Source: Rubrivivax sp. | Lineage (GTDB): Bacteria > Pseudomonadota > Gammaproteobacteria > Burkholderiales > Burkholderiaceae_C | Direction: 5' to 3' | Length of the DNA stretch: 64,000 bases | NCBI GenBank assembly: GCA_030681795.1 | Contig: JAUXRG010000114.1 | Coordinates: 1-64,000, forward strand | Part shown: one piece after another, positions 6,596-24,095 of the stretch | Position numbering within the stretch: the first letter of the stretch is position 1 | Layout of the letters: every line of letters starts with the position of its first letter | Notes under the pieces: generated by a model | The model's input: only the letters and a program-made list of their open reading frames with translations | Told to the model about the DNA's origin: nothing | The model's database searches: none | Translations under genes and position numbers: made by a program

Positions 6596-6917
6596 CAGTC
6601 AACGCAGGCCGACCGGCAGCCCGCCAGAAACCTGGTGCGCCGGATGGTACCGCCGACCCAGCCCGGCAGCCCGCGAGGCCCGTGACCTTCTTGGCGGTCG
6701 ATGACCGCCCATCAATGAAAGGCCGATCTCGCTCCCTATGACGTTCGTATGTCACGCGCACCCCCCGATACAGGGGTTGCCGGGTCGGACACCGCCTCCT
6801 TACAGTCCGATCAAGCGCCAAAAGTGTCGATTTTTTTGACATTGCGTCGTTCGGGCCGCCTGGCCGGGGTGCCGCCGCACCCAGCCCCACGCCCGGGTTT
6901 CGTGTTCAGGAGAGGGA
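6596..6917. promoter_or_regulatory. Divergent intergenic region, prsK / sugar transferase
   Basis: 322 bp without a plausible gene, between prsK (minus) and the sugar transferase gene (plus). It holds a small inverted repeat TGTC-N9-GACA with a T7 run in the spacer (6825-6841), and AGGAGAGGG just before the ATG at 6918, a strong ribosome binding site. I looked for GG-N10-GC sigma-54 elements on both strands and found only poor matches, so the promoter type is not clear. Confidence 0.5.
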
Positions 6918-8303: not shown

Positions 8304-8313
8304 CGCCGCCTGC

Positions 8314-8338
8314 GGCCCGGGCGCGCTGCCGCCGGGCC
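8314..8338 (+). other. Stem-loop between epsB and prsR
   Basis: Perfect 7-bp arms GGCCCGG and CCGGGCC with an 11-base loop, just after the sugar transferase stop codon. There is no T-run, so it may be an mRNA-stabilising or attenuating hairpin and not a true terminator. Confidence 0.35.
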
Positions 8339-8371
8339 CACAATCGTGGTCGATGTGCGCCCCCATGCTTC

Positions 8372-9739
8372 ATGAGCACCGATAACGCCTCCCCGCTGTT
8401 GATCGTCGAGGACGACCTGGCGCTGCAGAAGCAGATCAAGTGGTCGCTGGACCGCTTCGAATCCGTCACGGCCAGCGACCGCGAAAGTGCGCTGGTCCAG
8501 CTGCGGCGGCACCAGCCCAGCGTGGTGACGATGGACCTGGGCCTGCCGCCCGACCCGGACTCGGTGTCCGAGGGCTTCAAGCTGCTGGGCCAGATGCTGG
8601 ACATCGACCCGAACCTGAAGGTCATCGTGCTGACGGGCCAGAACGACCAGGCGCATGCGCTGCGCGCCGTGGCCCTGGGCGCCTACGACTTCCTGGCCAA
8701 GCCTTTCGACCCGGAAGTGCTGGGGTTGACGATCGACCGCGCCTATCGGCTCGCCGAACTGCAGGCCGAGAACCGGCGCATGCAGGCGCTGCAGCAGCCC
8801 GACGCGCTCTCGGGGCTGATCACGCGCGACCCGGAGATGTTGCGCATCGGCCGCCTGATCGAGCGGGTGGCGGCCAGCAATGCCTCGGTGTTGCTGCTGG
8901 GCGAGAGCGGCACGGGCAAGGAAGTGCTGGCCCAGGGGCTGCACCAGGCATCAAAGCGCAGCGGCAAGTTCGTGGCCATCAACTGCGCGGCGATCCCGGA
9001 AAACCTGCTCGAAAGCGAGCTCTTCGGCTACGAGAAGGGGGCTTTCACCGGCGCCGCCAAGACCACCGTCGGCAAGATCGAGACCGCCCATGGCGGCACC
9101 CTGATGCTCGACGAGATCGGCGACCTGCCCCATTCGCTTCAGGCCAAGCTCTTGCGCTTCCTGCAGGAGCGGACCATAGAGCGCCTGGGTGGGCGCCAGG
9201 AACTGCCGGTGGACGTGCGGGTGGTGGGTGCCACGCACCAGGATCTGGGCGCGCAGATCAAGACCGGGCAGTTCCGCGAGGACTTGTACTACCGGCTGGC
9301 AGAGATCGTGGTCACGATCCCGCCGCTGCGCGAACGCAACGGCGACGCCGTGCTCATGGCGCACGCCTTCCTGCGGCGCTTCGCGCAGGAGCAGCGGCGC
9401 GGCAACCTGGCACTCGCCGACGATGCCATCCAGGCCATCGAAGCCCACCCCTGGCCGGGCAATGTGCGCGAGCTGCTCAACGCGATCAAGCGCGCGGCGA
9501 TCATGGCCGACGGCGTGCGCGTGACGGCCGCCGACATCGGCATCCCCGTGCCCACCGGCGAAGGCGCGTCGCCCACGTCCAGCGACATCGACCTGCGCAC
9601 GGTGCGCGAGCAGGCCGAGCGGCAGGCCGTCATCACCGCGCTCGCACGCACCAGCGGCAATATCCTGCGCGCCTCCGAGATGCTCGGCGTGAGCCGGCCC
9701 ACGCTCTACGACCTGATGCATAGACTGGCAATTAAGTAG
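8372..9739 (+). CDS. prsR: PEP-CTERM-box sigma-54 response regulator PrsR
   Basis: Response regulator of 455 residues that activates RNA polymerase holding sigma-54. A receiver domain comes first (LLIVEDD at the start, phospho-acceptor Asp about 55 in VTMDLGL). The AAA+ central domain has Walker A GESGTGKE at about 177, the sigma-54 contact loop GAFTGA at 223-228 and a Walker B-like LMLDEIGDL. A Fis-type helix-turn-helix ends the protein (ASEMLGVSRPTLYDLMHRL). Its cognate kinase is expected to be PrsK, encoded divergently upstream. A likely target is the sigma-54 promoter at 253-268. I chose the ATG at 8372 because it places the receiver domain at the N-terminus as in the family; the ribosome binding site there is weak. 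Only 17 bp separate its stop from prsT2, so the two are probably co-transcribed. Confidence 0.92.
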   Translation: MSTDNASPLLIVEDDLALQKQIKWSLDRFESVTASDRESALVQLRRHQPSVVTMDLGLPPDPDSVSEGFKLLGQMLDIDPNLKVIVLTGQNDQAHALRAVALGAYDFLAKPFDPEVLGLTIDRAYRLAELQAENRRMQALQQPDALSGLITRDPEMLRIGRLIERVAASNASVLLLGESGTGKEVLAQGLHQASKRSGKFVAINCAAIPENLLESELFGYEKGAFTGAAKTTVGKIETAHGGTLMLDEIGDLPHSLQAKLLRFLQERTIERLGGRQELPVDVRVVGATHQDLGAQIKTGQFREDLYYRLAEIVVTIPPLRERNGDAVLMAHAFLRRFAQEQRRGNLALADDAIQAIEAHPWPGNVRELLNAIKRAAIMADGVRVTAADIGIPVPTGEGASPTSSDIDLRTVREQAERQAVITALARTSGNILRASEMLGVSRPTLYDLMHRLAIK

Positions 9740-9756
9740 CAAGTATCGGAGACCGC

Positions 9757-12531
9757 ATGAAGACCCGAAACCCCATGTCGTTGTGCGCCCTGATCGCGGT
9801 CTGCGCTTTGCTAGGCGCGTGCCAGGGCCGCTCCGACGACGCCGAAGCGGTGGCCTCGGCCAAGAACTACATCGACAAGCAGGACTACAAGGCCGCCATC
9901 ATCCGCGCGAAGAACGCGCTCCAGAGCAACCCGCAGAACGGTGAAGCGCGGCGCCTGCTCGGCCAGGCACTGCTGGAAACCGGCTCGGCGCAAGCCGCGG
10001 CGGTGGAGCTGCGCAAGGCGCTCGAATTCAATGCCGGCGAATCGAAAACCGTGCCGCTGCTGGCCCGGGCCCTGCTGGCCCAGGGCGAAACCAGCCAGCT
10101 GATCCAGCAGTTTGCCTCGACCAGGCTCGACGACGCCGCGGCATCGGCCGACCTCAAGACCAGCGTGGCGACGGCCTACGCCAGCCAGGGCGAGCGCGAC
10201 AACGCGCTGGAGACCGTGCTCTCGGCGCTCAAGGAATGGCCGCAGCATGCGCCGGCCACGCTGCTGCACGCCCGCATCAAGGCCGCCGACGGCGACACGG
10301 CCGGCGCGCTGGCGCTCATCGAACCGGTGCTGGCGCGGGACGCCAAGGACGTGAACGCGCTGATCCTCAAGGCCGACCTGCAGCGCCTTGGGCAGCAAGA
10401 CCGCGACGCCGCGCTGGCCACCTACCGCAGCGCCGTGGCGGCGAGCCCGGGCGCGGTGGCCGCGCACTCCGCGATCATTGCGATGCTGCTCGAGCAACGC
10501 GATGTGGCCGGGGCCAAGACCCAGCTCGAGCGGCTCAAGGCCGCGCAGCCCGGCCACCCCGAGACACGCCGGATCGAGGCCCAGCTGGCCTACCTGGGCA
10601 ACGATTTCGCCAAGACGCGCGAGATCACCGAGCAGTTGCTCAAGCACTTCCCCAACGACCCACGGATACTGCAGCTTGCCGGCGCCGCCGAATTGCGTTT
10701 GAACTCGTTGGCGCAGGCCGAAGTCCACCTCGGCCAGGCAATGAGGGCCGCGCCGAGGGCGCTGCTGCCGCGCCAGATGTTGGCCCAGATCCATCTGCGC
10801 ACGGGGCAGCCGCAGAAGGTTCTGGACGTGCTGCAACCAATCCTGGAGTCGACTGCGCCGGATGCCGAGAGCCTCACCCTGGCCGGGCAGGCGCACTTGC
10901 AGAGCGGGGACCTGGCGCGCTCGGAAGCCGCGTTCGCACGCGCCGCGAAGATCGACCCGAAGGCCACCACCGCGCGCACGGCGCTGGCCCTCAACCAGTT
11001 GGCCAAAGGCAACGCGGCCGGCGGCTACGCCGAGCTCGAAGCCGTGGCGGCCGGCGACACCGGCACACGCGCCGACATGGCCTTGATTGCGGCCCGGCTG
11101 CGCGCCAACGACCTGGGCGGCGCCCTCAAGGCCGTGGATGCGCTGGAGAAGAAGCAACCCGGCAAGCCCTTGGCCCAGGTGCTGCGCGCCAACATCGAGC
11201 TGCGGCGCAAGAACACCGTGGCGGCAAAGGCCAATTTCGAGAAGGCCCTGGCGATCGACGCGCTGTATTTCCCGGCGACCGCGGGGCTGGCCGCGCTGGA
11301 GATGGCCGCCGGGCGGCCCGAGGGCGCGAAGAAGCGCTTCGAAGACCTGCTGCGCGCCGACCCCAAGAACTACCGCGCCATGCTCGGCCTGGCGGAAGTG
11401 AAGGCGCGCATGGGCAGCCCCAAGGAAGAGGTGACGCAAGCGATTGCCAACGCCGCCAAGGCCAGCCCCACCGAGCCTGCGCCACGCATGCTGCTCGTCA
11501 AATACCTGCTCAGCCAGCAGGACACCAAGGCCGCGCTGGCAGCGGCCCAGGATGCCACTGCCGCGTTGCCCAACAACCTGGAAGTGCTCGACCAGCTCGG
11601 CGCCGCACAGCTCGCCGCGGGCCAGGCGCAACAGGCCGTCAGCACCTACACCAAGCTGGCGGCTGCACGCCCCGACCGGCCCGAGCCCGAACTGCGCTTG
11701 GCCCACGCGCATGTCGCCGCCAAGGACCTGGAAGCCGCCCGGCGCAGCCTGGAACGCGCGCTGAAGATCAAGCCCGGGCTGCTGTCGGCGCAACGCGCAC
11801 TCGCCGAAGTCGAGGTGCTGCAAAAGCGCTATCCGCAGGCGCTGGAAATCGCGCGGACCCTGCAGCGCGCCCAACCCAAGCAGGCCGTCGGCCACGTGCT
11901 GGAGGCCGACATTGAATCGGCCCGCGGCCGTCACGACGCCGCGGCCGCCGCCTTGCGCTTGGCGCTGCCGCTGGGCGGGGGCACCGAAGTGGCCATCAGA
12001 CTGCACCGCGCGTTGGGAGCCGCCGGGCGCAAGGACGAAGCCGAGCGCCTGATATCGACCTGGAAAAAGGAGCATCCGCAGGACACGGTCTTCCGCTTCT
12101 ATCTTGGTGACACAGCCCTGGCGCACAAGGACTTCGCCGCGGCGGAGGCGCATTACCGCAGCGTGACGGAGCTGCAGCCCGACAACGCCCTGGCGCTGAA
12201 CAACATCGCCTGGCTGATGACGAGGCAACAGAAACCGGGTGCCGTGGCGGTGGCTGAGCGCGCGAACCAGCTTCTGCCCGGCCGGCCCGCACTGATGGAT
12301 ACCCTGGCCTGGGCCATGGCGGCCGAGAACCAGGCGCCGCAGGCCATCGAGTTGCAGAAGAAGGCCATTGCGAAGGCGCCCGACGACGCCAGCCTGAAGC
12401 TCACCCTGGCCAAGATCTACCTGAAGGCCGGCGACCGCCCCCGTGCCCGCGCCGAGCTCGAGAGCCTGGCCAAGCTGGGTGACAAGTTTCCTGGCCAAAG
12501 CGAAGTCGTGGAACTGCTGAAATCGCCTTAG
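9757..12531 (+). CDS. prsT: PEP-CTERM system TPR-repeat lipoprotein PrsT (copy 2)
   Basis: Lipoprotein of 924 residues. The leader ALLGAC has the lipobox Cys at about 22. The mature protein opens with SAKNYIDKQDYKAAIIRAKN, nearly the same as copy 1, and continues as TPR units to the C-terminus (ALNNIAWLMTRQQKPGA, then ELESLAKLG). It follows prsR by 17 bp with GGAG before the ATG, so an operon prsR-prsT is likely. It is more GC- and Ala-biased than copy 1 and fits its surroundings better, so it is probably the copy in the original locus. Function in the family: associated with exopolysaccharide and PEP-CTERM protein export; mechanism unknown. Confidence 0.9.
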   Translation: MKTRNPMSLCALIAVCALLGACQGRSDDAEAVASAKNYIDKQDYKAAIIRAKNALQSNPQNGEARRLLGQALLETGSAQAAAVELRKALEFNAGESKTVPLLARALLAQGETSQLIQQFASTRLDDAAASADLKTSVATAYASQGERDNALETVLSALKEWPQHAPATLLHARIKAADGDTAGALALIEPVLARDAKDVNALILKADLQRLGQQDRDAALATYRSAVAASPGAVAAHSAIIAMLLEQRDVAGAKTQLERLKAAQPGHPETRRIEAQLAYLGNDFAKTREITEQLLKHFPNDPRILQLAGAAELRLNSLAQAEVHLGQAMRAAPRALLPRQMLAQIHLRTGQPQKVLDVLQPILESTAPDAESLTLAGQAHLQSGDLARSEAAFARAAKIDPKATTARTALALNQLAKGNAAGGYAELEAVAAGDTGTRADMALIAARLRANDLGGALKAVDALEKKQPGKPLAQVLRANIELRRKNTVAAKANFEKALAIDALYFPATAGLAALEMAAGRPEGAKKRFEDLLRADPKNYRAMLGLAEVKARMGSPKEEVTQAIANAAKASPTEPAPRMLLVKYLLSQQDTKAALAAAQDATAALPNNLEVLDQLGAAQLAAGQAQQAVSTYTKLAAARPDRPEPELRLAHAHVAAKDLEAARRSLERALKIKPGLLSAQRALAEVEVLQKRYPQALEIARTLQRAQPKQAVGHVLEADIESARGRHDAAAAALRLALPLGGGTEVAIRLHRALGAAGRKDEAERLISTWKKEHPQDTVFRFYLGDTALAHKDFAAAEAHYRSVTELQPDNALALNNIAWLMTRQQKPGAVAVAERANQLLPGRPALMDTLAWAMAAENQAPQAIELQKKAIAKAPDDASLKLTLAKIYLKAGDRPRARAELESLAKLGDKFPGQSEVVELLKSP

Positions 12532-12568
12532 ACTGACCGGTACTGGACCAGGAGGCCGGACGCACATC

Positions 12569-13834
12569 ATGAAAAAGTCCGGCTGGGCTGCCCTGCGGCA
12601 CCAATTCCGGCGGGCCATGCGGGCGGCCCTGGCCGCATTGCCGGCCTCATGGCGCTTTGCGCTGTTCCGCGGGCTGGTGGATTGCGAGCCCGCGCTGGGC
12701 GACGACTTCCAGCTCAAGATCGCCGAAACCCAGGCCGAGCTCGAGGCTTGTTTCGCGCTCCTGCACGACGCCTACGTGGCCAGCGGCTTCATGCGAGCGC
12801 ATCCCTCGGGCCTGCGCGTGACGCCCTACCACGCGCTGCCGACGACGACCACGCTGTGCGCGAAGATGGGCGATCGCGTGGTCGGTACCCTGTCCATCGT
12901 GCGCGAAGGTGTGTACGGTTTTCCGATGCAGTCGGCCTTCGACATCGCGTCGGTGCGCGCCAAGGAAGGCCGCATCGCCGAGATCTCCGCCCTGGCCGTG
13001 CATCCCGCGTACCGCAAGACCGGTGGGGCGATCCTGTTCCCGCTGATGAAGTTCATGTACGAGTACTGCACGCGGTATTTCGACACCCGGCACCTGTTGA
13101 TCGCGGTGAATCCGAACAAGATCGAGATGTACGAGTCGCTGCTGTTCTTCCGCCGCCTGACGGCGCAGGTGGTCGAGAAGTACGACTTCGCCAATGGCGC
13201 GCCGGCGGTGGGCGCCACGCTCGACCTGCACGAGGCGCCCACGTTATTCAAGCGCGCCTATGCGCACAAGCCGGGTCGGCGCAATTTGCATCGCTACTTC
13301 GTCGAGACCACGCTGCCGCAGATCAAGTTTCCGCCGCGCGAATGGAATACGAGCAACGACCCGGTGCTCACGCCGGCACTGATCGACCACTTCTTCAACC
13401 GCCGCACGCAGGGGTTCGACTTGCTCGACGAGCGCCGCAGGCTGCTGCTGCACTCCATTTACGACGGCCCGCAGTGGGCTCGGGTGCTGCCGCCGTTGGC
13501 GGCCGAGGCCACGCTCGACGGCAGCGTGCGGCGCCACCCGCGCCACACGGTGAAGTGCCCCGCTGCCTTGACGCCGATCGGGCAGCCCGCAAGCACGCAG
13601 CCGATCACCATCGTCGAGATCTCGGCCCGCGGATTCCAGGCCCGCACCGGCAGCGCGTTGCAAGTCGGGCAGCAGTGCAGCGTGGTGGCAGAACTCGCCG
13701 ATGGCATTCAGGCGAGCGTGCAGGCCGAGGTGGTGCACCAGGGGTCTGGCGACAGCGGTGAACTTTTTGGTTTTCGCGTCGACGATCCCGATCTGGCCTG
13801 GACCCGTTGTTCAGACTGGATCGACGCGGCCTGA
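12569..13834 (+). CDS. FeeM-type N-acyltransferase fused to a PilZ domain
   Basis: 421 residues in two parts. Residues about 45-240 look like the N-acyl amino acid synthase (FeeM) branch of the GNAT fold, which joins an acyl-ACP chain to an amino acid amine: EISALAVHPAYRKTGGAILF is the acyl-donor strand-loop, and HLLIAVNPNKIEMYESLLFF the second GNAT hallmark. Residues about 320-415 form a PilZ domain, with the c-di-GMP motif RRHPR (R321 and R325) and EISARG (E350-G355, the usual D/N replaced by E). The product would be an N-acyl amino acid made when c-di-GMP is bound; that is inference. It lies 37 bp after prsT2 on the same strand. FeeM-like acyltransferases are regular companions of exosortase loci. 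The ATG at 12569 is the first in frame after prsT2. Confidence 0.8.
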   Translation: MKKSGWAALRHQFRRAMRAALAALPASWRFALFRGLVDCEPALGDDFQLKIAETQAELEACFALLHDAYVASGFMRAHPSGLRVTPYHALPTTTTLCAKMGDRVVGTLSIVREGVYGFPMQSAFDIASVRAKEGRIAEISALAVHPAYRKTGGAILFPLMKFMYEYCTRYFDTRHLLIAVNPNKIEMYESLLFFRRLTAQVVEKYDFANGAPAVGATLDLHEAPTLFKRAYAHKPGRRNLHRYFVETTLPQIKFPPREWNTSNDPVLTPALIDHFFNRRTQGFDLLDERRRLLLHSIYDGPQWARVLPPLAAEATLDGSVRRHPRHTVKCPAALTPIGQPASTQPITIVEISARGFQARTGSALQVGQQCSVVAELADGIQASVQAEVVHQGSGDSGELFGFRVDDPDLAWTRCSDWIDAA

Positions 13835-13874
13835 CCCTTCGATGCTCCTGACTCGCAGCAAGGAAATACCCGCC

Positions 13875-14639
13875 ATGTCGTCGCCGCACTGGTCACGCAG
13901 GGCCTGGCTCGCCGCCTTGGCGGGGGTGGCGTTCAGCGCCCGGGCCGACCTGCCGTCGCTGATCTCGACGCTGCGGCCCTCGGTATTGCCGGTGGGCACC
14001 TACAGCGCGCTGAGCAGCCCGCGCTTCACCTTCCGAGGCAGCGGCTTCGTGGTCGAAGGCGGCTCGCTGCTGATCACCAACGCCCATGTGCTGCCGGATC
14101 CGGGCACGACCCCGGCGCCTCAGCTCGCGGTGCTGGCGGCGCGCGCCGATGGCGGCCGCGACGTGCGGGTGGCCACGCTCGTCGGCGTGGACCGGGCCCA
14201 CGACCTGGCATTGCTGCGGCTGGAGGGTGCGCCGCTGCCGGCGCTCGAACTGGCCGAAAACGGCACCGTGCGCGAGGGCATGGACGTGGCGCTGATGGGT
14301 TACCCGATCGGCGGCGTGCTGGGCTACTCGGTGGTCACGCACCGCGGTATCGTCTCGTCGGTCACCGCGATCGCGCTGCCCTCGCCGACCTCGCAGCAAC
14401 TCACTGGGAAATCCATCTCGCGGCTGCGCGAGGGGCCCTTCGAGGTCTACCAGCTCGACGCGACGGCCTACCCGGGCAACAGCGGCGGGCCACTGCTCGA
14501 CGCCCACACGGGCCGGGTCGTGGGCATCGTCAATATGGTTTTGGTGCGCAGCACACGCGAGTCGGCGTTGTCGAACCCGACCGGCATCACCTATGCGATC
14601 CCGGTGCGATTCGCGCGCGACCTCATGAAGGACCGCTGA
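13875..14639 (+). CDS. Exported trypsin-like serine protease (S1C type)
   Basis: 254 residues. The N-terminus (SPHWSRRAWLAALAGVAFSA) is a signal peptide with a twin arginine, ending near ARA-D. The catalytic triad is visible: His71 in TNAHVL, Asp110 in RAHDLALL and Ser203 in PGNSGGPLL. There is no PDZ domain, so it is shorter than DegP/HtrA. It may trim or check exported proteins. The ATG at 13875 has AAGGAA about nine bases upstream; an upstream ATG at 13842 would bury the signal peptide. It lies 40 bp after the FeeM-PilZ gene and may share its transcript. Confidence 0.85.
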   Translation: MSSPHWSRRAWLAALAGVAFSARADLPSLISTLRPSVLPVGTYSALSSPRFTFRGSGFVVEGGSLLITNAHVLPDPGTTPAPQLAVLAARADGGRDVRVATLVGVDRAHDLALLRLEGAPLPALELAENGTVREGMDVALMGYPIGGVLGYSVVTHRGIVSSVTAIALPSPTSQQLTGKSISRLREGPFEVYQLDATAYPGNSGGPLLDAHTGRVVGIVNMVLVRSTRESALSNPTGITYAIPVRFARDLMKDR

Positions 14640-14684
14640 GCAGCGCGCGCCCGCGGCGTGACCGCGGCGCGCCTGAAAGCCGCT

Positions 14685-15455
14685 TCAGTTGACGGCCAGC
14701 GACGCCGGCTTCTGCACCGTCATCAGGCGCGCGGTGATGCCCAGTTCTTCGTCAGCGGTGAACGCCAAGGGGTACAGCGACCGATCTGTAGCCGTGCGTT
14801 CGGGCTGGCCCCCCAGCTCGCGGATCTGCGCCGCGATGTAGTCGAAATCGATCGACAGCAACACGGCAGGGGCGTTGACGGCGTGGTTCAGACGCTCTTC
14901 GCCGATCACCCGCGCGCCCAGCATGCGCTCGTAGTAGCGCACATGCCGTGGGTTGACCTCCATCACCAGCGCGTCGTATCCGCGCATCCGGTGCGCCACG
15001 ATGTAGGCGACGTGGAAAAGCGCTGCCAGCACCCGTTTGGTACCCGCAACCGGGTCGATCGCAAGCTTGGTGAATTCGCAAACGCGATACCCGCGGGCCC
15101 GCAAGGCATCGATCTCTGCGGTGAACTCGTCCTCGCAGTTCATCCCTTCGTGCCCGTCGAGCCCGACCGTGATGGTGCCTATGGTGACGCTGTCTTCAAT
15201 GGCGGTCAGGGTGATCCGGTTGGCGGTCTGGTCCGCCGGCAGGCTGACCGTCTGGTAGCCGCGCCAGCCATAGCGCTCTTGAATCAGCCGGTTCACGGAC
15301 TGCCGGACGACGAAGGAGTCGGCCGATTCGATCTTGAACTGGCGGTGATTGGAATGCCCGCCCGCAGACGGGTCCATCCGAGCGTGCTCAACCAGCATGC
15401 CCGGGGGCGCTTTGCGCGACTCCAGCGGGGCGGCAATGATCGTGGTGGTGCTCAT
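14685..15455 (-). CDS. FeeM-like N-acyl amino acid synthase
   Basis: 256 residues, resembling the FeeM catalytic core: CEFTKLAIDPVAGTKRVLAA is the conserved strand and acyl-donor loop, and DALVMEVNPRHVRYYERMLG the second GNAT hallmark. The expected activity is transfer of an acyl chain from acyl-ACP to an amino acid. Unlike the protein at 12569 it has no PilZ domain. It is convergent with the protease gene and lies downstream of the minus-strand HprK-rel-A genes (201 bp after the nucleotidyltransferase stop), so it could be read through from them. The ATG at 15455 has a weak ribosome binding site. Confidence 0.78.
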   Translation of the reverse strand: MSTTTIIAAPLESRKAPPGMLVEHARMDPSAGGHSNHRQFKIESADSFVVRQSVNRLIQERYGWRGYQTVSLPADQTANRITLTAIEDSVTIGTITVGLDGHEGMNCEDEFTAEIDALRARGYRVCEFTKLAIDPVAGTKRVLAALFHVAYIVAHRMRGYDALVMEVNPRHVRYYERMLGARVIGEERLNHAVNAPAVLLSIDFDYIAAQIRELGGQPERTATDRSLYPLAFTADEELGITARLMTVQKPASLAVN

Positions 15456-15656
15456 GAGGGTGCTCTGGAACGCCTTGTTGCCTAGCCTGTAGTCTGCTCA
15501 AAAGCGGGCTCGGTAGCTGTATCCAAATATAAGTGCAAGCTCAAAAAGAGCATCCGGCCCACGCATCACAAGCAAGGCCTGTAACCAGAAGCAGCCGTCT
15601 GGATTCCTGCAACATTTTGATGCAGAGATGTCGGCATCGCCCGGTCAAAGCCAATT

Positions 15657-16745
15657 TCACGCCCGACGCCCCTGAGTCGCGCTCTTCCAGGCCTTTGTCG
15701 CAAGGTGCCGCAAGAGTTGAAGCGGGGGCATCCGAAGCCAGTGCCCGCGGAGATAAATGGCCCCGTGCGAGGCACGCGCGGCCCAGCTTCGGCGAGCCGC
15801 CTGCGGCGATTGCAGCGCTACCAAGTAGACCCGAGCGAGAACACGAGCCGAGCTGCGCGTCGCGAAACCTGGCACCAGGCGCTCGAGAATATCGTCGGGG
15901 ATGGAAGTTCCGAACAAGCGCCGGGCCAAGCGCAACCCATGCGCGACGGGAAGCGCCAAATCGTTCCCCGCGGCGGTGGAAACGAGACGCGTCCAGAAGC
16001 CGGCGCTCGCCGTGAACATCCGGACCATGCGGTCGATGTCATGGAGGTCGCGCAGCCCGTTGTGCAGTTCACCTTCGTGCATCAGGTGCGTGATGCTGTG
16101 GATCAGGAGGTCTTCGGGGCAAGGTACGCGCAGTGCTGGAAGGCCTTCGACTGGCACCGCGCGATCGATGATGGCAGACGGGTCCGGCGTGTTGCGGGCA
16201 CTCAGCGGCAGGATGGTGTGATGCACGTCCATGACGGTGCCGCGATGGACGTTCACCATCGGCGGCAGCTCATGCATCCACTGGCGGTAATAGCGCTGGT
16301 CGTAGGCGTCTTGCTTGGCACTGGCCCAGCCGCCCAGCATGAGCTGGCTCTCGACGTTGCCCAGCTGCACTCGGGGCACCAGGATGTCGATGTCGCCGAA
16401 GAGCCGCCCGCGTGCAATTTCAGGATAGCCCAGCACATAGGCCGCGCCCTTGAGCAACACGACCGGGGTGCCTAGCCCTTCAAGTGCAGCCTGCAGGCAG
16501 TGGGCTTCCCAGACGACGGACAGCTGTTGCCGCTGGCTGAGTTGTCGCGCGCCATCGAGGTGGCGTGCCGCGTCGGCTGGCCATTCGTCACTGACAGCCT
16601 CCAGGCGTTCCGCCAAAGCGCCCAGGAGATTGGCCGAACGCGCCACGGCAATCAGCCGCGACCATTCGGAGGGCCGCAAGCCGGCCGCAAGCGTCGGCCG
16701 CGCCAGGATCGCCAGCAATTCCGCGGTCTCGGACACCGGCCTCAT
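15657..16745 (-). CDS. Nucleotidyltransferase family protein of the HprK-rel-A cassette
   Basis: 362 residues. The fold is that of the large, little-studied nucleotidyltransferase family often found with exosortase and HprK-rel-A genes. The active-site pattern is VVLLKGAAYVLGYP followed by RLFGDIDILV (GDID about 117-120). A His-rich central part follows (MDVHHTILP, HSITHLMHEGEL), then a basic C-terminus. The substrate is unknown. The ATG at 16745 overlaps the stop codon of the upstream HprK-like kinase (ATGA), showing translational coupling, and this is why I reject a longer in-frame start at 16835. It is the last gene of the cassette. Confidence 0.75.
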   Translation of the reverse strand: MRPVSETAELLAILARPTLAAGLRPSEWSRLIAVARSANLLGALAERLEAVSDEWPADAARHLDGARQLSQRQQLSVVWEAHCLQAALEGLGTPVVLLKGAAYVLGYPEIARGRLFGDIDILVPRVQLGNVESQLMLGGWASAKQDAYDQRYYRQWMHELPPMVNVHRGTVMDVHHTILPLSARNTPDPSAIIDRAVPVEGLPALRVPCPEDLLIHSITHLMHEGELHNGLRDLHDIDRMVRMFTASAGFWTRLVSTAAGNDLALPVAHGLRLARRLFGTSIPDDILERLVPGFATRSSARVLARVYLVALQSPQAARRSWAARASHGAIYLRGHWLRMPPLQLLRHLATKAWKSATQGRRA

Positions 16746-17602
16746 CCGGCGCAAATCCTGCGGACGCCTTCGATCCCGTCCGTGGTCGAACCATAGGTCA
16801 GCTCGAAGCACTGCGCTGCGCTGAGCATGTCGCACAAGCCGCGAAAACCGAGCTCACCCATGCGCTCCTTGTTGAAAGACTGCTCCGAGATCCAGGAGAA
16901 CGCTTCGACACGCGTCACCGGTTCGATCTGCAACGGGCTGTCGGCGACAAAGCGGGGGAAGACCACCCACGCCGGGCGCGCAGGCTCGCCGGCGCGCTTC
17001 ATCGATGCAGGTGGGCAGGCGGCATGGGTGATGGTGCCCTTGCGGGTGTCTCGATATACGGTGCCGACACGGCTGCCCGGGAAGGCGGCAACGATATCGA
17101 TCGCCGCATTCTTCACGCTGATCGGCCGGGGGTGGGGCAAGAGCATCCCCAGCTTCGGGTCAAGAATCGCCAACTCGTCCGACAAGAGGCGCCAGCCGTC
17201 GAGGTGTGTGAGGGCCGCACACAGCGTGCTCTTCCCCGCCCCGGGGAATCCCGGCAGCACCAGCGCGCGTCCATCGCGCTCGACCACCGCGGCATGCATC
17301 ACCAGATACCCCAGCGCACGCTGGGCCACGCACCAGTTCATGCCCCACTCGAACAGCGGTGCGGCCTGTTCGGCCGGCAAGGGGAAAAAGGGCTCGATGC
17401 CCTCCAGCAGAAAGCGCGCTTGCGGCTTCCACCACCGGCGCAGGCCGCCGGCCGGAACGACCTCGACGTCGAAGTCGACAAACGAGTCGCCCACCGGGCT
17501 CATGCAATCCAGGTAGTAGAAACCGACGTGCCGCGAGACGCTGGCCAGCGGTGAACGCAAGCGGATGTGAAACGGCGGGATATGAAGGACGGCGTCGATC
17601 AA
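16742..17602 (-). CDS. HprK-related kinase A
   Basis: 286 residues. The core is HprK-like: a Walker A GFPGAGKST at 118-126, an upstream conserved MHAAVV (His103), and LLSDELAILD at about 139-148. The N-terminal part differs from true HPr kinase, and no HPr gene is nearby. This matches the HprK-rel-A family, which occurs with a dedicated PqqD-like protein, encoded here immediately upstream. Probable role: an ATP-dependent step on a peptide or protein held by the PqqD-like chaperone; this is inference. The start is a TTG at 17602 with only a weak Shine-Dalgarno; it keeps the N-terminal FHIRLRSPLA region. It is coupled by ATGA overlap to the nucleotidyltransferase. Confidence 0.8.
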   Translation of the reverse strand: MIDAVLHIPPFHIRLRSPLASVSRHVGFYYLDCMSPVGDSFVDFDVEVVPAGGLRRWWKPQARFLLEGIEPFFPLPAEQAAPLFEWGMNWCVAQRALGYLVMHAAVVERDGRALVLPGFPGAGKSTLCAALTHLDGWRLLSDELAILDPKLGMLLPHPRPISVKNAAIDIVAAFPGSRVGTVYRDTRKGTITHAACPPASMKRAGEPARPAWVVFPRFVADSPLQIEPVTRVEAFSWISEQSFNKERMGELGFRGLCDMLSAAQCFELTYGSTTDGIEGVRRICAG

Positions 17603-17621
17603 GTCCTGGGAGTCCCGACTT

Positions 17622-17951
17622 TCACCGCGCCGGGCTCATCGAAGCACCGGACTCCTGGAGCAAGCCCGCGGCAACCAAACCGGCAACGGTCGAAGTCCAA
17701 TCCTGGCCGTGCTCGGCGCCTGCAGGCGTCGATTCGAACTGACGCCGAAGCGCATCGGGGTCCAATGGGCCCTCTTGGGCCAGGCGCCCCACCAAGTGCC
17801 GACTGATGGAACTCAAGACCCAGAAGTCACCCGACGCAGCGTCGAAGACAAGATGGCCATCCGCCTCCGGCCATACCGGCCCGAAGCGCATCAGCCTGCC
17901 AGCCCGGACGGAAAGTGCCATTCGAGAAAGAGGCTTCGTGCCTACTTGCAC
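17622..17951 (-). CDS. HPr-rel-A system PqqD-like peptide chaperone
   Basis: Small protein of 109 residues with the PqqD winged-helix pattern: HLVFDAASGDFWVLSSISRH, then a helix (LDPDALRRQF), then GLVAAGLLQE near the end. PqqD proteins hold a precursor peptide for a modifying enzyme. Here the gene sits between a Tat-exported Cys-rich protein and an HprK-like kinase. The start is uncertain: GTG at 17951, or ATG at 17921, neither with a good Shine-Dalgarno. Only 13 bp separate it from the stop of the upstream gene, so one transcript is likely. Confidence 0.72.
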   Translation of the reverse strand: MQVGTKPLSRMALSVRAGRLMRFGPVWPEADGHLVFDAASGDFWVLSSISRHLVGRLAQEGPLDPDALRRQFESTPAGAEHGQDWTSTVAGLVAAGLLQESGASMSPAR

Positions 17952-17964
17952 CTGCAGAAAAAAG

Positions 17965-18717
17965 TCAATTGCTCTTTACGCAGAGATTCGCCACGGGTGC
18001 GTTGATATCGTACAGACCCTCGATGTAGGAAATCACTTTGTCGGCGGTCCAGGGCACGGAGCAACCCGACAACGACGAGGGGCAATAGACCCCGGTGTTT
18101 TTCAACTGCGTCCACATGTCGATCACCTGGGCTTTGGTGATGGGATACAGAGCCGCCGCGCTGGTGAAATACCCTGCGTTCAGCCAGGCGCAACTCAAGT
18201 GACGCAACAACTGGCCGATGCCACCTCCGCCCCCGAAAATCTTGTTGGTCGGGTCGTAGATCGCAAACCACATGCCGATCGGATCGTCGGTGCCAGCCGG
18301 CACCCAGCCCGAAAAGAGGCTCTGAAGCGTTGTTCCCGGGGTGGCGATATCGGCCTTCTTGAGTTTCGCGGATGCGATGTCACACGAAACGACCAAGCCG
18401 CCGAAGGTCGGAAACACCCCGCCTGCAGTCACCCAGTTCCCGGCATGCTGAGGCTGGACCCAATACCCCGGGGACAGCCCTCCTGAGCAAGTAGCGGCGC
18501 CGGGCCTTGGACTGGTATTGCCACTCAGGGCCGCGGAAGGGCTCTGGCAAACCACGCCGCCGATGGCACTCTTGGCGCTGACCGCCAGGAGCACGCCAGC
18601 GCCGCCGCCCACACCGCGGAAAAGACGCCGACGCCCGCTGTCTACAGGAGGAAGGCCTTCAGGCGTCACGTCAATGCGCCCGGATTCGCCATCCTGCTGA
18701 TGTCGTTCTTGGTTCAT
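17965..18717 (-). CDS. Orphan Tat-exported Cys/Gly-rich protein, first gene of the HprK-rel-A cassette
   Basis: 250 residues, not recognised as a known enzyme. A twin-arginine signal lies at about 28-50 (SGRRRLFRG, then GGGAGVLLAVSA). The mature part has seven Cys (57, 77, 112, 176, 212, 219, 246), a CSGGLSPGYW motif at 77-86, a GGGGGIG run at about 162-168, CAWLNAGYF at 176-184, and YPITKAQVIDMW. The Tat signal suggests it folds, or gains a modification, before export. It leads a run with the PqqD-like protein, the HprK-like kinase and the nucleotidyltransferase, so it is the best candidate for the cassette's substrate. That role is inference; the alternative is an unrelated secreted protein. 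Confidence 0.7.
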   Translation of the reverse strand: MNQERHQQDGESGRIDVTPEGLPPVDSGRRRLFRGVGGGAGVLLAVSAKSAIGGVVCQSPSAALSGNTSPRPGAATCSGGLSPGYWVQPQHAGNWVTAGGVFPTFGGLVVSCDIASAKLKKADIATPGTTLQSLFSGWVPAGTDDPIGMWFAIYDPTNKIFGGGGGIGQLLRHLSCAWLNAGYFTSAAALYPITKAQVIDMWTQLKNTGVYCPSSLSGCSVPWTADKVISYIEGLYDINAPVANLCVKSN

Positions 18718-18851
18718 GACACAGTCCCGTCATTCGACCAGGGACAGTTCCCTGCACCTAGATTATCGCCATCTCATCCGCGCCGCGACCCCCCTGAATC
18801 AGGGTCATCGGTCAGGCCTTTTCACAGCAAATCACGGATCGAAGCCCACTG

Positions 18852-19859
18852 TCAGACCCTGTAGTACCCCCGATACCATTCCACGAACCGCCCCACCCCG
18901 GTGCGCACATCGGTGGCTGGCGTGAAACCCACCCAGTCGCGCAGCGCGTCCACGTCGGCGTAGGTCGCCGGCACGTCGCCGTCCTGCAGCGGCAGCAGGT
19001 TCATCTGCGCCTTCATGCCCAGCGCGTCTTCGATGCAGCCGATGTAATCCATCAGTTGCACCGGGTCGTGGTTGCCGATATTGAAGACGCGGTAAGGCGC
19101 GTTGCTGGTCGCCGGGTCGGGCGTGTCGGACAGATAGGCCGGGTTGGGCACGGCGGGGCGATCCAGCACGCGGATGACACCCTCGGCGATATCGTCGACG
19201 AAGGTGAAGTCGCGCCGCATCTGGCCGTGGTTGAACACGTCGATGGGGCGGCCTTCGAGGATGGCCTTGGTGAAGAGGAACAGCGCCATATCCGGCCGGC
19301 CCCAGGGCCCGTAGACGGTGAAGAAGCGCAGCCCGGTGGTGGGCAGGCCGAAGAGGTGGCTGTAGGTGTGGGCCATCAGCTCGTTGGCCTTCTTGGTGGC
19401 CGCGTACATGCTCACCGGGTGGTCCACCGCGTCGTGCTCGGAAAACGGCATCTTGGTATTGCCGCCGTAGACGCTGGAGCTCGACGCGTACACCAGGTGC
19501 TGCACGCCGCTGTGGCGGCAGCCTTCGAGCACGTTCATGAAGCCGACGACGTTGCTGTCGACATAGGAGTGCGGGTTCTGCAGCGAATAGCGCACGCCGG
19601 CCTGCGCGGCCAGGTGGATCACGCGGTCGAAGCGCTCGGCGGCGAAAAGCTGCTCCATGCCGGCGCGGTCGGCCACGTCGAGCTTCACGAAGCGAAAATG
19701 ATCGTGAGGCGTGAGCCGCGCCAGGCGCGCTTCCTTGAGGCTGACCTCGTAGTAGTCATTGAGGTTGTCCAGGCCGACCACTTCGTCGCCGCGCGCCAGC
19801 AGGCGCAGCGAGGTGGTCATGCCGATAAAACCGGCGGCGCCGGTGAGCAGAATTTTCAT
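18852..19859 (-). CDS. NAD-dependent epimerase, UDP-glucuronate 4-epimerase type
   Basis: 335 residues of the extended short-chain dehydrogenase type. The NAD-binding motif TGAAGFIG is at the N-terminus. The catalytic set is SSSSVYGG and YAATKKANE (the Tyr-x3-Lys pair). The C-terminal part is typical of nucleotide-sugar epimerases ([20 protein letters not shown]). The length and sequence fit UDP-glucuronate 4-epimerases, which make UDP-galacturonate for surface polysaccharide. It follows the nitroreductase-like gene by two bases, so the two are coupled; the ATG at 19859 is fixed by that spacing. Confidence 0.85.
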
Positions 19860-19861
19860 AT

Positions 19862-20452
19862 TTACAGCAGCTGCGTCGCGACTTCGAATGGCAGGCGGGG
19901 GCCTCGCGGGTGGTTGCCGCTGGCGTCGCCGTAGCCCAGGTTGACGAGGAAATTGGCCTTCCAGCGCCCGTCGGGGAAGAACTCGGCGTTGAGCTTTGCC
20001 GCGTCGAAGCCGCTCATCGGCCCGCAGTCCAGGCCGAGCATGCGCGCGGCCACGATGAGGTAGGCGCCCTGCAGGGTGCCGCTGCGCGCCGCCGTGGACT
20101 CGGCCAGTGCGGCATCGCTCTCGAACATCGCCCTGCCCCCCGAAAAGGCCGGGAATTGCTCGGGCAGGAACTCGTAGAAGCGCGTATCGGTGGCCACGAT
20201 CGCCACCACCGGCGCGGCCAGGGTCTTGTCGACATTGCCCGGCGAGAGCGCGGGCTTCAGGCGCTGTTTGGCCGGCTCGCTGCGCAGGAAGACGAAGCGC
20301 GCCGGCTGGGCATTCATCGAGGTCGGACCCCATTTCAGCAGTTCGTAGAGCTCGCGCAGCGTGGCGTCGCTGACGGGCTCGGGCCTGAATTTGTTGAAAG
20401 TGCGCGCGTGGCGGAACACCAGGTCCGGGGACCGGTCGTCGAGAGGGCTCAT
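19862..20452 (-). CDS. Nitroreductase-family protein, malonic semialdehyde reductase (RutE-like)
   Basis: 196 residues from the chosen ATG. The sequence has the RutE/HadB pattern: [17 protein letters not shown] near the start, [19 protein letters not shown] (FMN-binding strand), and [20 protein letters not shown]. Members use FMN and NAD(P)H to reduce malonic semialdehyde or other aldehydes and quinones. No rut genes are near, so the substrate here is open. A GTG at 20491 is an alternative start, with GGGAAG overlapping the previous gene, but the extra 13 residues do not look like the family. The gene lies between cytochrome c and epimerase genes on one strand. Confidence 0.8.
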
Positions 20453-20496
20453 TCGGCTCACAGGAAGGAGTTGGGTGGGATGCGTGACCACAGCGC

Positions 20497-21153
20497 CTAC
20501 TTCCCGGGCACGGGGAATTGCGCCATGTAGTCTGCGACGGCTTCGATGTCGGCGACGGAGTAGCGCTTGACCACCGCCACCATCTCGGGGTGGGAATTGC
20601 GGCGCTGGCCGTCGCGGATCATCTGCACCTCACGGACCAAATACGGGTAGTGCTGTGCGGCCACCCGGGGGTAGAACTGGGCCGCCTGCCCCTGGCCGGC
20701 CGCACCGTGGCAGGAGGCGCAATCGCGCTCATAGAGCCGCTTGCCGGGCGCCAGGGCCTTGCCCGGCCCCTTGTCGTGCTCGCCGCGAACGGGCAGGCTT
20801 TGCGCGTAGGCCGCGACATCGGCGACATCCTGGGCGGTGATCGACGGGTCGTCGATGACGGCCTGCATGACCGGGTTGAAGCGCCGGCCGGCACGAATGT
20901 CGGCCAGTTGCTTCATCAGCACCGAGGCATGCTGCCCCGCCAGGGCGGGAAAGTTGCCCTTGGCGCGCCCGGCACCGTCCTTGCGATGGCAGGCCTCGCA
21001 CAGCTCGAAGACCCCGGCCCCCCGCTTGGCATCGCCCTTGGCGGCCAGAGCGGCCCGCAGGTCGGGCTTGAGCTCGAACCAGGCGGGAGCCTGGGCGAAG
21101 GCCGCAGTGCTGCACAGCGCCAGCGGCCAGGCATTCCAGAGCGACACCTTCAA
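20497..21153 (-). CDS. Periplasmic diheme cytochrome c
   Basis: 218 residues. A signal peptide ([18 protein letters not shown]) is followed by two cytochrome c domains, each with one heme motif: CEACH at about 48 and CASCH at about 145. This is the cytochrome c4/c553-like diheme type, which passes electrons between the bc1 complex and terminal reductases or oxidases. The start is probably TTG at 21153, with GGAGG seven bases upstream; GTG four codons later... in frame is a weaker option. It is divergent from narK1 and may feed periplasmic nitrogen-oxide reduction, but that is only suggested by position. Confidence 0.85.
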
Positions 21154-21389
21154 AAGCACTCCTCCATTTGTAGATGCACAGCGCGGGGTGGCAAACGGAT
21201 CCACCCGCCCAAGCCGACCGCAGTCTCGACGATAGCGCCTGGCAGCCTGGGGCTGGCGCCGTAGTTCTTCCGAACGATGGCCCGTGAACGGCCATCGTCC
21301 TTCTGCCGGCCCGTTTTTGCCCGGCGGACGGATGGCCGCCGCGGCCACGACACGGGACAGTCGAGCCCTCGCTGCGACCCATCCAAACC
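21154..21389. promoter_or_regulatory. Divergent intergenic region, cytochrome c / narK1
   Basis: 236 bp between two divergent starts. It has a perfect 8-bp inverted repeat CGATGGCC-N7-GGCCATCG at 21275-21297, followed by a second GC-rich hairpin with a T5 loop at about 21303-21325. I saw no TTGAT-N4-ATCAA site of the FNR type, which is unexpected upstream of a nitrate respiration operon. Confidence 0.5.
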
Positions 21390-22673
21390 ATGGCCTCCAC
21401 TGCAACCCCCATCCCGCGCCAGGCCTGGAGCGTGCTGGTCGTCAGCACCCTGGCCTTCACGGTGTGCTTCATGGTCTGGATGATGTTCGGCGTCATCGGC
21501 ATCCCGCTGAAGAAGACGCTGGGCCTGAACGCCACCCAGTTCGGGCTGCTCACGGCCACGCCGGTGCTCACGGGTTCGCTGATCCGCGTGCCCCTGGGCA
21601 TCTGGACCGACAGGTACGGCGGCCGCATCGTCTTGTCGGTGCTCATGGCGCTGACCGTGCCGGCGATCTGGCTCATGGCCTACGCCACGGTCTTCTGGCA
21701 CTTTCTCGTCATCGGCCTGTTCGTCGGCCTGGCCGGTGGCTCGTTCTCGGTCGGCACGCCCTATGTGGCGCGCTGGTTCCCGCGAAACCGCCAGGGCATG
21801 GCCATGGGCGTCTTCGGCGCGGGCAATTCCGGCGCCGCGGTCAACAAATTCGTCGCCCCGGCGCTGCTGGTGGCCTTCGGCTGGACGATGGTGCCGCAGG
21901 TCTATGCCGCGGTCATGCTGGGCACCCTCATCGTATTCTGGCTCGGCAGCTCGAGCGACCCCAGGCACCTGGCGTCCTCGAACACCAGCTTTGCCTCGCA
22001 GCTGCTGGCGCTAAAGGACCCCAAGGTGCTCAAGTACTGCCAGTACTACAGCATCGTGTTCGGCGGCTACGTCGCGCTGAGCCTGTGGATGGTGCAGTAC
22101 TACGTGGGCGAGTTCGGGCTGGACATCCGCATTGCGGCCCTGCTGGCGGCCTGCTTCTCGCTGCCCGGCGGCGTGCTGCGCGCCGTTGGCGGCGTGCTGG
22201 CGGACAAGTTCGGCGCCCACAGCTTCACCTGGTGGGTCATGTGGGTGAGCTGGATCTGCCTGTTCCTGCTGTCGTACCCGCAGACCGACATGACCGTGAT
22301 GACCGTGGACGGGCCGCGCACCTTTCACGTCGGCCTCAACGTGTATGCCTTCACGGCGTTGATGTTCGTGCTCGGCATCGCCTGGGCCTTCGGCAAGGCC
22401 AGCGTCTTCAAGTACGTCAGCGACGACTACGCCCACAACATCGGCGCCATCAGCGGCATCGTCGGGCTGGCCGGCGGGCTGGGCGGCTTCGTGCTGCCCA
22501 TCCTGTTCGGCGCGCTGATGGACCTCACCGGCATCCGCTCCAGCGCCTTCATGTTGATGTACGGCGTGGTCTGGGTCTCACTCATCTGGATGTACTGGAC
22601 CGAAGTGCGCAAGACCGAGCTCATGGGCCGGGACGCGCCCGAGTCACCCTTCGCGGGGCCGTCGGCCCGCTAG
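21390..22673 (+). CDS. narK1: NarK1-type nitrate transporter (MFS)
   Basis: Inner-membrane transporter of 427 residues with about 12 membrane helices. The nitrate signature regions of the NNP family are present: GAGNSGAAVNKFVAP and GLAGGLGGFVLPILFG. The first helix region (FMVWMMFGVIGIPLKK) is typical of the NarK1 half, thought to work as a nitrate/proton symporter. It opens the run narK1-narK2-narGHJI, with 39 bp to narK2. In several denitrifiers the two NarK types are fused or paired; here they are separate genes. Confidence 0.92.
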   Translation: MASTATPIPRQAWSVLVVSTLAFTVCFMVWMMFGVIGIPLKKTLGLNATQFGLLTATPVLTGSLIRVPLGIWTDRYGGRIVLSVLMALTVPAIWLMAYATVFWHFLVIGLFVGLAGGSFSVGTPYVARWFPRNRQGMAMGVFGAGNSGAAVNKFVAPALLVAFGWTMVPQVYAAVMLGTLIVFWLGSSSDPRHLASSNTSFASQLLALKDPKVLKYCQYYSIVFGGYVALSLWMVQYYVGEFGLDIRIAALLAACFSLPGGVLRAVGGVLADKFGAHSFTWWVMWVSWICLFLLSYPQTDMTVMTVDGPRTFHVGLNVYAFTALMFVLGIAWAFGKASVFKYVSDDYAHNIGAISGIVGLAGGLGGFVLPILFGALMDLTGIRSSAFMLMYGVVWVSLIWMYWTEVRKTELMGRDAPESPFAGPSAR

Positions 22674-22712
22674 GCGCAGCTTGCCCCACCCACAACCCCA
22701 AGGAGAGCCCGC

Positions 22713-24095
22713 ATGGCTTCTCACGTGATTTCGCAATGGAACCCCGAGGACAAGGCGCAGTGGGAACGCTCCGGCCGCGCCGTGGCGCAGCGCAACCTGT
22801 GGCTGTCGATCCCCGCGCTGACGCTGGCCTTCGCGGTGTGGATGGTATGGAGCGTGGTCGTCGTCAACCTGCCGAGCGTCGGCTTCAAATACAGCACCAA
22901 CCAGCTGTTCTGGCTGGCGGCCCTGCCCGCCTTGTGCGGGGCCACCTTGCGCATCTTCTATTCCTTTGCCGTGCCCATCTTCGGCGGGCGGCGCTGGACC
23001 GCCATCTCCACCGCCACGCTGCTGCTGCCCGCACTGGGCATCGGATTCGCAGTGCAGAACCCCGCCACGCCCTATGAAGCCATGGTGGTGCTGGCGCTCT
23101 TGTGCGGCTTCGGCGGGGGCAACTTCGCCAGCTCGATGGCCAACATCAGCTTCTTCTTCCCCAAGGCGCAAAAGGGCTATGCGCTGGGCATGAATGCGGG
23201 CCTGGGTAACTTGGGCGTGAGCATCGTGCAGTTCGTCGTGCCGCTGGTCATCACCGCCGGCGTATTCGGCACCATCGGCGGTGAGCCGGCCACCGTCACC
23301 AAGGCTGGCCAGACCTCGCAGATGTGGCTGCAGAACGCCGGGTTCATCTGGGTGCCGTTCATCGCGCTGTCGGCGCTGAGCGCCTGGTTCGGGATGAACG
23401 ACCTGGCCGACGCCAAGGCCAGCTTCGCCGACCAGGCCGTGATCTTCAAGCGCAAGCACAACTGGCTGATGTGCTGGCTGTACCTGGGCACCTTCGGCAG
23501 CTTCATCGGCTACTCGGCAGGTTTCCCGCTGCTCATCAAGAGCCAGTTCCCGGGCATCAACGCGCTGCAATACGCCTGGCTGGGCCCCCTGGTCGGCGCG
23601 CTGATCCGCCCGCTGGGCGGCTGGCTGAGCGACAAGCTTGGCGGCGCCCGCGTGACCTTCTGGAACTTCATCGCCATGGCCGTGGGCGTGTACGCGGTGC
23701 TGCAGTTCCTGCCCCACGGCGGCCAAGGGGGCAATTTCATCGGCTTCCTGATTTCCTTCATGGCGCTTTTTGCCTTCTCGGGCATCGGCAACGGGTCCAC
23801 CTTCCGCATGATCCCGGTGATTTTCATGACCGAGCGCCAGCGCGAAGCCGCCCAGACGCCCGCCGCGCAGGAGCAGGCGGTGAAGGACGCCAACAAGGAA
23901 GCCGCCGCGGTGCTGGGTTTCAGCTCGGCCATCGGGGCCTACGGTGGCTTCTTCATTCCCAAGAGCTATGGCACCGCAATCGCCCTGACCGGCAGCCCGG
24001 ACGCCGCGCTGTACGGCTTCATCGTCTTCTACCTGACCTGCATCGCTGCGACCTGGTGGTTCTACAGCCGCAAGAACGCCGCCATGCCCTGCTGA
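22713..24095 (+). CDS. narK2: NarK2-type nitrate/nitrite antiporter (MFS)
   Basis: 460 residues with about 12 membrane helices. The NNP signatures read GFGGGNFASSMANISFFFP and a C-terminal GAYGGFFIPKSYG. The long loops, and the start MASHVISQWNPEDKAQW, are those of the NarK2 type, expected to exchange nitrate for nitrite. The ribosome binding site is AAGGAG, ten bases before the ATG. It is followed after 16 bp by narG, so import, reduction and nitrite export are encoded together. Confidence 0.93.
   Translation: MASHVISQWNPEDKAQWERSGRAVAQRNLWLSIPALTLAFAVWMVWSVVVVNLPSVGFKYSTNQLFWLAALPALCGATLRIFYSFAVPIFGGRRWTAISTATLLLPALGIGFAVQNPATPYEAMVVLALLCGFGGGNFASSMANISFFFPKAQKGYALGMNAGLGNLGVSIVQFVVPLVITAGVFGTIGGEPATVTKAGQTSQMWLQNAGFIWVPFIALSALSAWFGMNDLADAKASFADQAVIFKRKHNWLMCWLYLGTFGSFIGYSAGFPLLIKSQFPGINALQYAWLGPLVGALIRPLGGWLSDKLGGARVTFWNFIAMAVGVYAVLQFLPHGGQGGNFIGFLISFMALFAFSGIGNGSTFRMIPVIFMTERQREAAQTPAAQEQAVKDANKEAAAVLGFSSAIGAYGGFFIPKSYGTAIALTGSPDAALYGFIVFYLTCIAATWWFYSRKNAAMPC

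Follow-up and report, generated by a model that had tools for sequence, protein, structure and literature searches.

A recurrent HprK-related kinase cassette in Pseudomonadota and its candidate substrate, a protein with a twin-arginine signal

We analyzed a cassette of four tightly packed minus-strand genes at positions 15657..18717 of a 64,000-nucleotide stretch of DNA (hereafter the window) from Rubrivivax sp. contig JAUXRG010000114.1. An earlier note, made from the sequence alone, had described this cluster and proposed that its first gene encodes an exported protein modified by the products of the other three. Open reading frame (ORF) calls reproduce the coordinates and the spacings that it gave (13, 19 and −4 bp): the genes for the putative precursor and a PqqD-like protein are separated by 13 bp, those for the PqqD-like protein and the kinase by 19 bp, and the kinase and nucleotidyltransferase genes share a 4-bp ATGA overlap. 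The genes, with predicted start codons, and two segments of the precursor are as follows, where RiPP denotes a ribosomally synthesized and posttranslationally modified peptide, RRE a RiPP recognition element and Tat the twin-arginine translocation pathway.

17965..18717, minus strand: class I precursor, the candidate substrate (ATG start, 250 amino acids [aa]), with an RR (Tat-type) signal and a predicted folded mature domain
18559..18633, minus strand: precursor residues 29-53, RRRLFRG...GVLLAVSAKSAIG, a Tat-type signal by its conserved RR pair and a putative leader for the RRE
18511..18549, minus strand: precursor residues 57-69, CQSPSAALSGNTS, Ser cluster and predicted phosphorylation region, from Ser conservation
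17622..17951, minus strand: PqqD-like protein, a predicted discrete RRE (GTG start, 109 aa)
16742..17602, minus strand: HprK-related kinase A (TTG start, 286 aa; 353.7 bits against TIGR04352)
15657..16745, minus strand: PF14907 nucleotidyltransferase (ATG start, 362 aa; 183.2 bits against PF14907)

The kinase surpasses the cut-off of 200 for the NCBIfam family TIGR04352 (HprK_rel_A), which places it among the HPr-rel-A kinases, and the nucleotidyltransferase surpasses the Pfam cut-off of 31.2. The PqqD-like protein, with 25.7 bits, does not reach the cut-off of 35 for TIGR04353, the PqqD-like family of the HPr-rel-A system; a relative at locus L172 passes the same model with 62.5 bits, and the Pfam PqqD model has no match anywhere in the genome. 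The profile of its own family (A4) matches the lasso B1 proteins in the PDB (TfuB1, 7.4e-8; TbiB1, 4.2e-4), and a Foldseek search with its structure model (mean predicted local distance difference test [pLDDT] score of 88.9) ranks the TfuB1–leader complex (6jx3_B) first with a probability of 1.00 and an E-value of only 0.021. By profile and predicted fold, we thus assign this protein as a lasso-B1-type RRE. In the kinase, His103, G121-x-GKST126 and Asp142-Glu143 are invariant in 105/105 distinct sequences, the window's included, and in the nucleotidyltransferase Lys98-Gly99, Arg113 and Asp117-x-Asp119 (numbering that starts at ORF residue 2) are invariant in 102/102. The product of the first gene has no Pfam or NCBIfam match, consistent with its description in the earlier note as unrecognized, and has 215 homologs at E ≤ 0.001; the closest cassettes are mostly found in Burkholderiales, e.g., in Rubrivivax and Roseateles.

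A homolog of this first gene adjoins the kinase gene in 81/81 loci, which hold 80 distinct kinases (L101 is identical to L023) and comprise 29 named genome contigs on which a relative of the kinase is encoded, 51 further loci drawn from a set of 200 family genomes, and the window. The profile search behind this count was iterated on those same loci; the first, uniterated profile matched 27 of the 29 named contigs. The precursor gene lies upstream of the kinase gene in 79 of the 81 loci and downstream of the nucleotidyltransferase gene in two, all 83 profile matches in 1.39 Mb fall within 3 kb of a kinase gene, and an RRE-type ORF is present in 76/81 loci (preselected ORFs, lenient threshold). 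Used without retraining on other families of the class, the same profile finds the precursor in 23/24 independent loci (24/25 before removal of L122, which is identical to training locus L020), the single miss lying at a contig end, and in 0/3 loci with below-cut-off kinases. Among the 200 related genomes, a precursor match is present in 49/49 genomes with an over-cut-off kinase vs 2/151 without one (Fisher 8e-45), and both matches in kinase-less genomes are weak or partial. Secondary matches of the precursor alignment consist of a domain in giant ORFs, short signal-only matches, which in two genomes adjoin below-cut-off kinases, and a few weak signal-like matches.

In 60 nonredundant class I precursor sequences, again including that of the window, R29 is found in 60/60 and R30 in 59/60, Ser61 in 58/60 and Ser65 in 57/60, with Ser69 less conserved (46/60); these first four residues and L179 (55/56 class I sequences) are the positions of highest conservation. 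The structure model is of high confidence from approximately residue 81 (ten-residue pLDDT means of 79-98), with a predicted class I folded domain of ≈170 aa for which neither Foldseek nor VIA-align returned a PDB match, and Ser61 to Ser65 fall between the signal and this domain, where the confidence of the model is moderate (block means of 60-71). TatC is encoded in the same genome (231 bits), and a twin-arginine signal in a genome with a Tat system is what is expected of a Tat substrate; we infer that the precursor is exported. NCBIfam and Pfam reveal no PEP-CTERM sorting signal on its C-terminus (...APVANLCVKSN). Relatives of the class I mature domain also occur inside giant repeat ORFs (L177:2-3886, 1295 aa; L178:4267-10890, 2208 aa), of which that in L177 has SdrD_B domains by Pfam and no Pfam match over the precursor-like domain, and a third giant ORF matched by the precursor profile is found in genome G168 (1907 aa). 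Because of these matches, the mature domain may be a generic extracellular one.

At the range of the phylum, an over-cut-off kinase is found in 51/299 genomes. The set that we examined contains 48 loci, 42 of them outside the class; two of the 51 genomes were already present in other sets, and G658 (fragments) and three genomes with only below-cut-off matches are left out. An RR-signal precursor is found in 41/48 loci (35 of the 41 outside the class); for this count, 15 of the 48 loci served as the training set of the class II profile, and four loci picked by eye as that of the class III profile. Without retraining, the class I profile on its own matches 34/48. Outside the class it aligns chiefly with the signal, and the mature parts there are different. 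Class II precursors mostly end in SCWxSF-like sequences and class III precursors (five loci) in CFASLQMPRG, and a Ser is found within the first four residues past a crudely placed cleavage site in 37/46 non-class-I precursors. The precursor tracks the RRE, being found in 39/40 loci with a detected RRE vs 2/8 without; L256 has an RRE and no precursor was found there, and L246 is cut by the contig end. The arrangement is beyond chance, with related cassettes present in further families of the class as well as in additional classes of the phylum. As judged from these alignments, the cassettes share a predicted RR signal peptide and Ser residues a short way past it, and mature parts beyond class I show no recognizable relationship. 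The earlier note had staked its substrate model on the first gene being present in most homologous cassettes, as is the case in all three sets (81/81, 23/24 and 41/48). It had also raised the question whether CSGGxSPGYW-like motifs are shared, which did not hold: the motif is confined to near relatives and to parts of class I (in an alignment of 28 close relatives, the variable letter is L, R or M, and Y alternates with F), and we rejected it as a general cassette signature in favor of the RR signal and the post-signal Ser.

That the Tat protein is simply an unmodified neighbor retained in the operon by history is very improbable on these data: the near-perfect match of presence and absence in 200 genomes makes it so, the linkage persists across the phylum sample despite differing mature parts, and nothing specific speaks for it, beyond a few kinases that stand alone without a Tat protein. 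As a separate observation, the below-cut-off HprK-like kinases at L170:1398-3058 and L171:4564-6070 are accompanied by an RRE and by very small RR-signal precursors. The low-complexity Gly/Asn or Gly/Lys cores of these precursors contain a single Ser in AKA-GS and zero Thr; these two loci possibly represent a separate RiPP-like branch.

We consider it fairly probable that the cassette is a pre-export protein-modification operon, in which the product of the first gene would be the substrate, the kinase would phosphorylate it, the nucleotidyltransferase would elaborate it and the Tat system would export it. In the cytoplasm, the RRE protein would dock the N-terminal signal region of the precursor and offer the adjoining segment to the HprK-like kinase for phosphorylation at a conserved Ser, Ser61 and/or Ser65 in the window precursor and, in other precursors, mostly a Ser ≈1-4 residues past the signal. 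The PF14907 nucleotidyltransferase would then elaborate this phosphorylated residue, most likely with a sugar or a nucleotidyl group; thereafter the product would be exported through Tat and its signal peptide removed outside the cell. Phosphorylation of the post-signal Ser cluster is expected by analogy with the trio of RRE, kinase and nucleotidyltransferase known from lasso peptides and from the linear polyphosphorylated peptides (LPPs) of Bacillota, into which the three downstream genes fit. HprK enzymes can also be phosphorylases. A reading in which the precursor remains the substrate, but of direct nucleotidylation by the PF14907 enzyme, with the HprK-like protein acting mainly as phosphorylase or regulator, draws on this property, on the description of PF14907 as an uncharacterized nucleotidyltransferase, on the Asp-Glu that the kinase carries instead of Asp-Asp and on PMC9266682, which leaves nucleotidylation by PsmN open. 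We judge it unlikely. PadeK, ThcoK, SyanK, PsmK, BsfK and LppK are all reported to phosphorylate a precursor Ser (BsfK also an engineered Thr), and the hexoses added by PsmN are reported on phosphorylated Ser (PMC9266682). PadeK phosphorylates the C-terminal Ser of the paeninodin precursor, and in pseudomycoidin PsmK phosphorylates before PsmN adds one or two hexoses on phospho-Ser (PMC9266682); BsfK phosphorylates core Ser3, faster with its RRE (PMC10368454), and LppK places up to four phosphates on core Ser3 (Popov et al. 2026, PMC13381572).

The genomic context connects the cassette to exosortase A (XrtA). In the family set, an over-cut-off exosortase A is found in 46/49 cassette genomes vs 5/151 others, and in the class set in 22/27 vs 29/247, both counts being uncorrected for shared ancestry. 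This tie is much stronger at the genome level than in the flanks, and in the Rubrivivax genome XrtA lies on another contig than the cassette. Because the cassette goes with exosortase A, its product probably acts on the cell surface or within the exopolysaccharide (EPS) matrix. In the window, the genes near the cassette include those for PrsT, a sugar transferase, two FeeM-like proteins and an NAD-dependent epimerase. The trio could instead target an EPS precursor, an exosortase-system protein or the HPr of the genome, with the Tat protein as a dedicated partner or effector. To this alternative we assign a low probability. It would suit the presence of exosortase A in most cassette genomes, the sugar-transferase and epimerase genes nearby, and the occurrence of one HPr-domain gene on another contig of a genome in which no second HprK-type match was found; the description of the kinase in the earlier note as an HprK without an HPr accordingly applies to the cassette and fails for the genome. 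What argues against it is that the RREs of characterized lasso and LPP systems bind precursor peptides, that the precursor tracks the RRE in the phylum sample, and that mature parts vary by class while the signal region and a nearby Ser persist, as would be more fitting for a substrate than for a partner protein.

Two features of this context stand on their own. The FeeM-like N-acyl amino acid synthase genes (PF21926), at 14685-15455 on the minus strand (163.6 bits) and 12569-13834 on the plus strand (147.1 bits), flank a trypsin-like protease gene (13701-14639) beside PrsT in an exosortase-type neighborhood, and the second of them encodes a C-terminal PilZ domain. A PafA-like alkaline phosphatase gene is found within ≈9 kb of the cassette, in mixed orientation, in 16/81 loci (L003-L006, L008, L066, L068, L070, L079, L082, L087, L095, L098, L100, L102 and L104), the representative scoring 452.6 bits, under the PafA cut-off of 650, and pst and phosphonate genes flank both plasmid cassettes viewed; a link of the cassette to phosphate is possible on these uncontrolled counts.

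Returning to the proposal of a pre-export modification operon, a number of observations weigh against it. XrtA/EPS marker genes (ten gene clusters, two of them named by eye) are found in the flanks of only 38/81 loci, or 36/81 without those two. The kinase motif is His-Lys-Asp-Glu, whereas His-Lys-Asp-Asp is reported for lasso kinases; the HPr-domain protein elsewhere in the genome makes a classical target conceivable; and the conserved Ser of class I is farther from the signal than in the LPPs. Deletion of LppN reportedly gave no detectable change in a heterologous host (PMC13381572). At five phylum loci (L225, L226, L232, L240 and L248) an over-cut-off kinase is accompanied by neither a detected RRE nor a detected precursor nearby, and these HprK_rel_A kinases perhaps have a different job. 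The remaining points concern the signal region as an RRE leader. Neither the window precursor nor the beginning of any of 80 + 41 other precursors contains [YW]xxPx[LVIFA], the motif linked to RRE binding in lasso peptides and LPPs. By a 27-residue profile of the leader alone, class II leaders are not distinguished from ordinary Tat signals (4.2-23.8 bits, with 20/32 scored, vs up to 15.0 in 30 control loci), and none of the five class III precursors exceeds the controls with either this profile or a longer class I profile, with which they reach 7.2-10.9 bits. A P-containing motif in the hydrophobic h-region, found in 78/146 precursors vs 0/24 control Tat signals (24 of 30 control loci usable, several of them homologous to each other), was picked post hoc, after inspection of the data, and the window precursor, with G in place of P, lacks it.

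On the other side, 30/32 class II precursors exceed the best control (12.5 bits) with the longer class I profile. The RR count of 146/146 precursors is partly by construction, as the search sought RR or R[HK]. Taken together, these mixed tests are no more than suggestive of a signal peptide that serves as an RRE leader. A bolder version, which we put forward tentatively and on balance lean against, is that the Tat signal has a dual role as the RRE-bound leader, such that one N-terminus would route unrelated folded or short proteins through the RRE, kinase and nucleotidyltransferase and then to export, in a general pseudomonadotal phospho(glyco)protein pathway that would provide exosortase-A EPS systems with tagged surface proteins.

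The substrate idea of the earlier note is thus partly supported, and the part of it that can be tested on genomes passes. The note also held the biochemistry of the cassette to be undescribed. Among the matches listed in searches of the open-licence literature (HprK-related kinase, RRE, PqqD, exosortase, twin-arginine RiPP), we found no description of the cassette and no substrate of the HPr-rel-A enzymes, and a term search of two RRE papers returned no mention of a kinase or of twin-arginine. Closely similar biochemistry was, however, published in 2026 for Bacillota. With the present cassette, the HPr-rel-A enzymes gain a specific and testable candidate substrate family, and the cassette pattern suggests an undescribed form of protein tagging, with phosphate and perhaps sugar, before export. 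If this is true, RRE-guided Ser modification would reach beyond the small peptides of Bacillota to folded proteins that Pseudomonadota export by Tat, and RRE-guided Ser chemistry would be linked to exosortase A.

How does the cassette compare with known systems? The names of the NCBIfam "HPr-rel-A system" (TIGR04352 kinase, TIGR04353 PqqD-like protein) appear in annotated plasmid records, a Sphingomonas record using both and a Vibrio record the kinase name, and in both records the first gene is annotated as "hypothetical protein"; a plasmid search for lasso-type neighbors found HPr-rel-A kinases in four records and weak kinase matches elsewhere. RREs linked to DUF2063, with DUF2282 precursors, use different modifying enzymes from those of the cassette. 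They resemble it in having an RRE-associated precursor with an export signal, which is a Sec signal rather than the Tat type of the cassette (PMC12710340). The phosphorylated and glycosylated lasso peptides (paeninodin, PadeK; pseudomycoidin, PsmK/PsmN; BsfK) share with the cassette a kinase, a nucleotidyltransferase and an RRE acting on a ribosomal precursor. No lasso macrolactam cyclase or B2 protease is found by Pfam or NCBIfam among the 12 neighboring ORFs of the window (4469-24095), and, unlike a threaded peptide, the candidate substrate is a predicted exported protein.

The LPPs are, together with these lasso peptides, the closest known systems. LPP systems have a discrete RRE, an HprK-like kinase, a nucleoside triphosphate (NTP) transferase and a precursor with a conserved N-terminus and a variable remainder, as does the cassette, and they likewise lack a macrolactam cyclase and lie in a polysaccharide-locus context; the LPP phosphosite is a Ser shortly past the cleavage site. 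The likeness is one of protein types, the trio plus precursor. LPP precursors of 35-200 aa carry a [Y/W]xxP leader motif, and a dedicated SpI-like peptidase as well as an MsbA-like exporter serve them. The LPP leader motif (YxxPxVLxHQxIxFETxxS/[YW]xxPx) is found neither in the precursor of the window nor at the beginning of the 80 + 41 others, and neither an SpI-like signal peptidase nor an MsbA-like exporter is found by Pfam or NCBIfam among the same 12 ORFs. Finally, PMC13381572 describes the LPPs as confined to Bacillota, whereas the cassette belongs to Pseudomonadota and is set apart by its RR (Tat-type) signal, the predicted folded domain of its class I precursors and its statistical tie to exosortase A.

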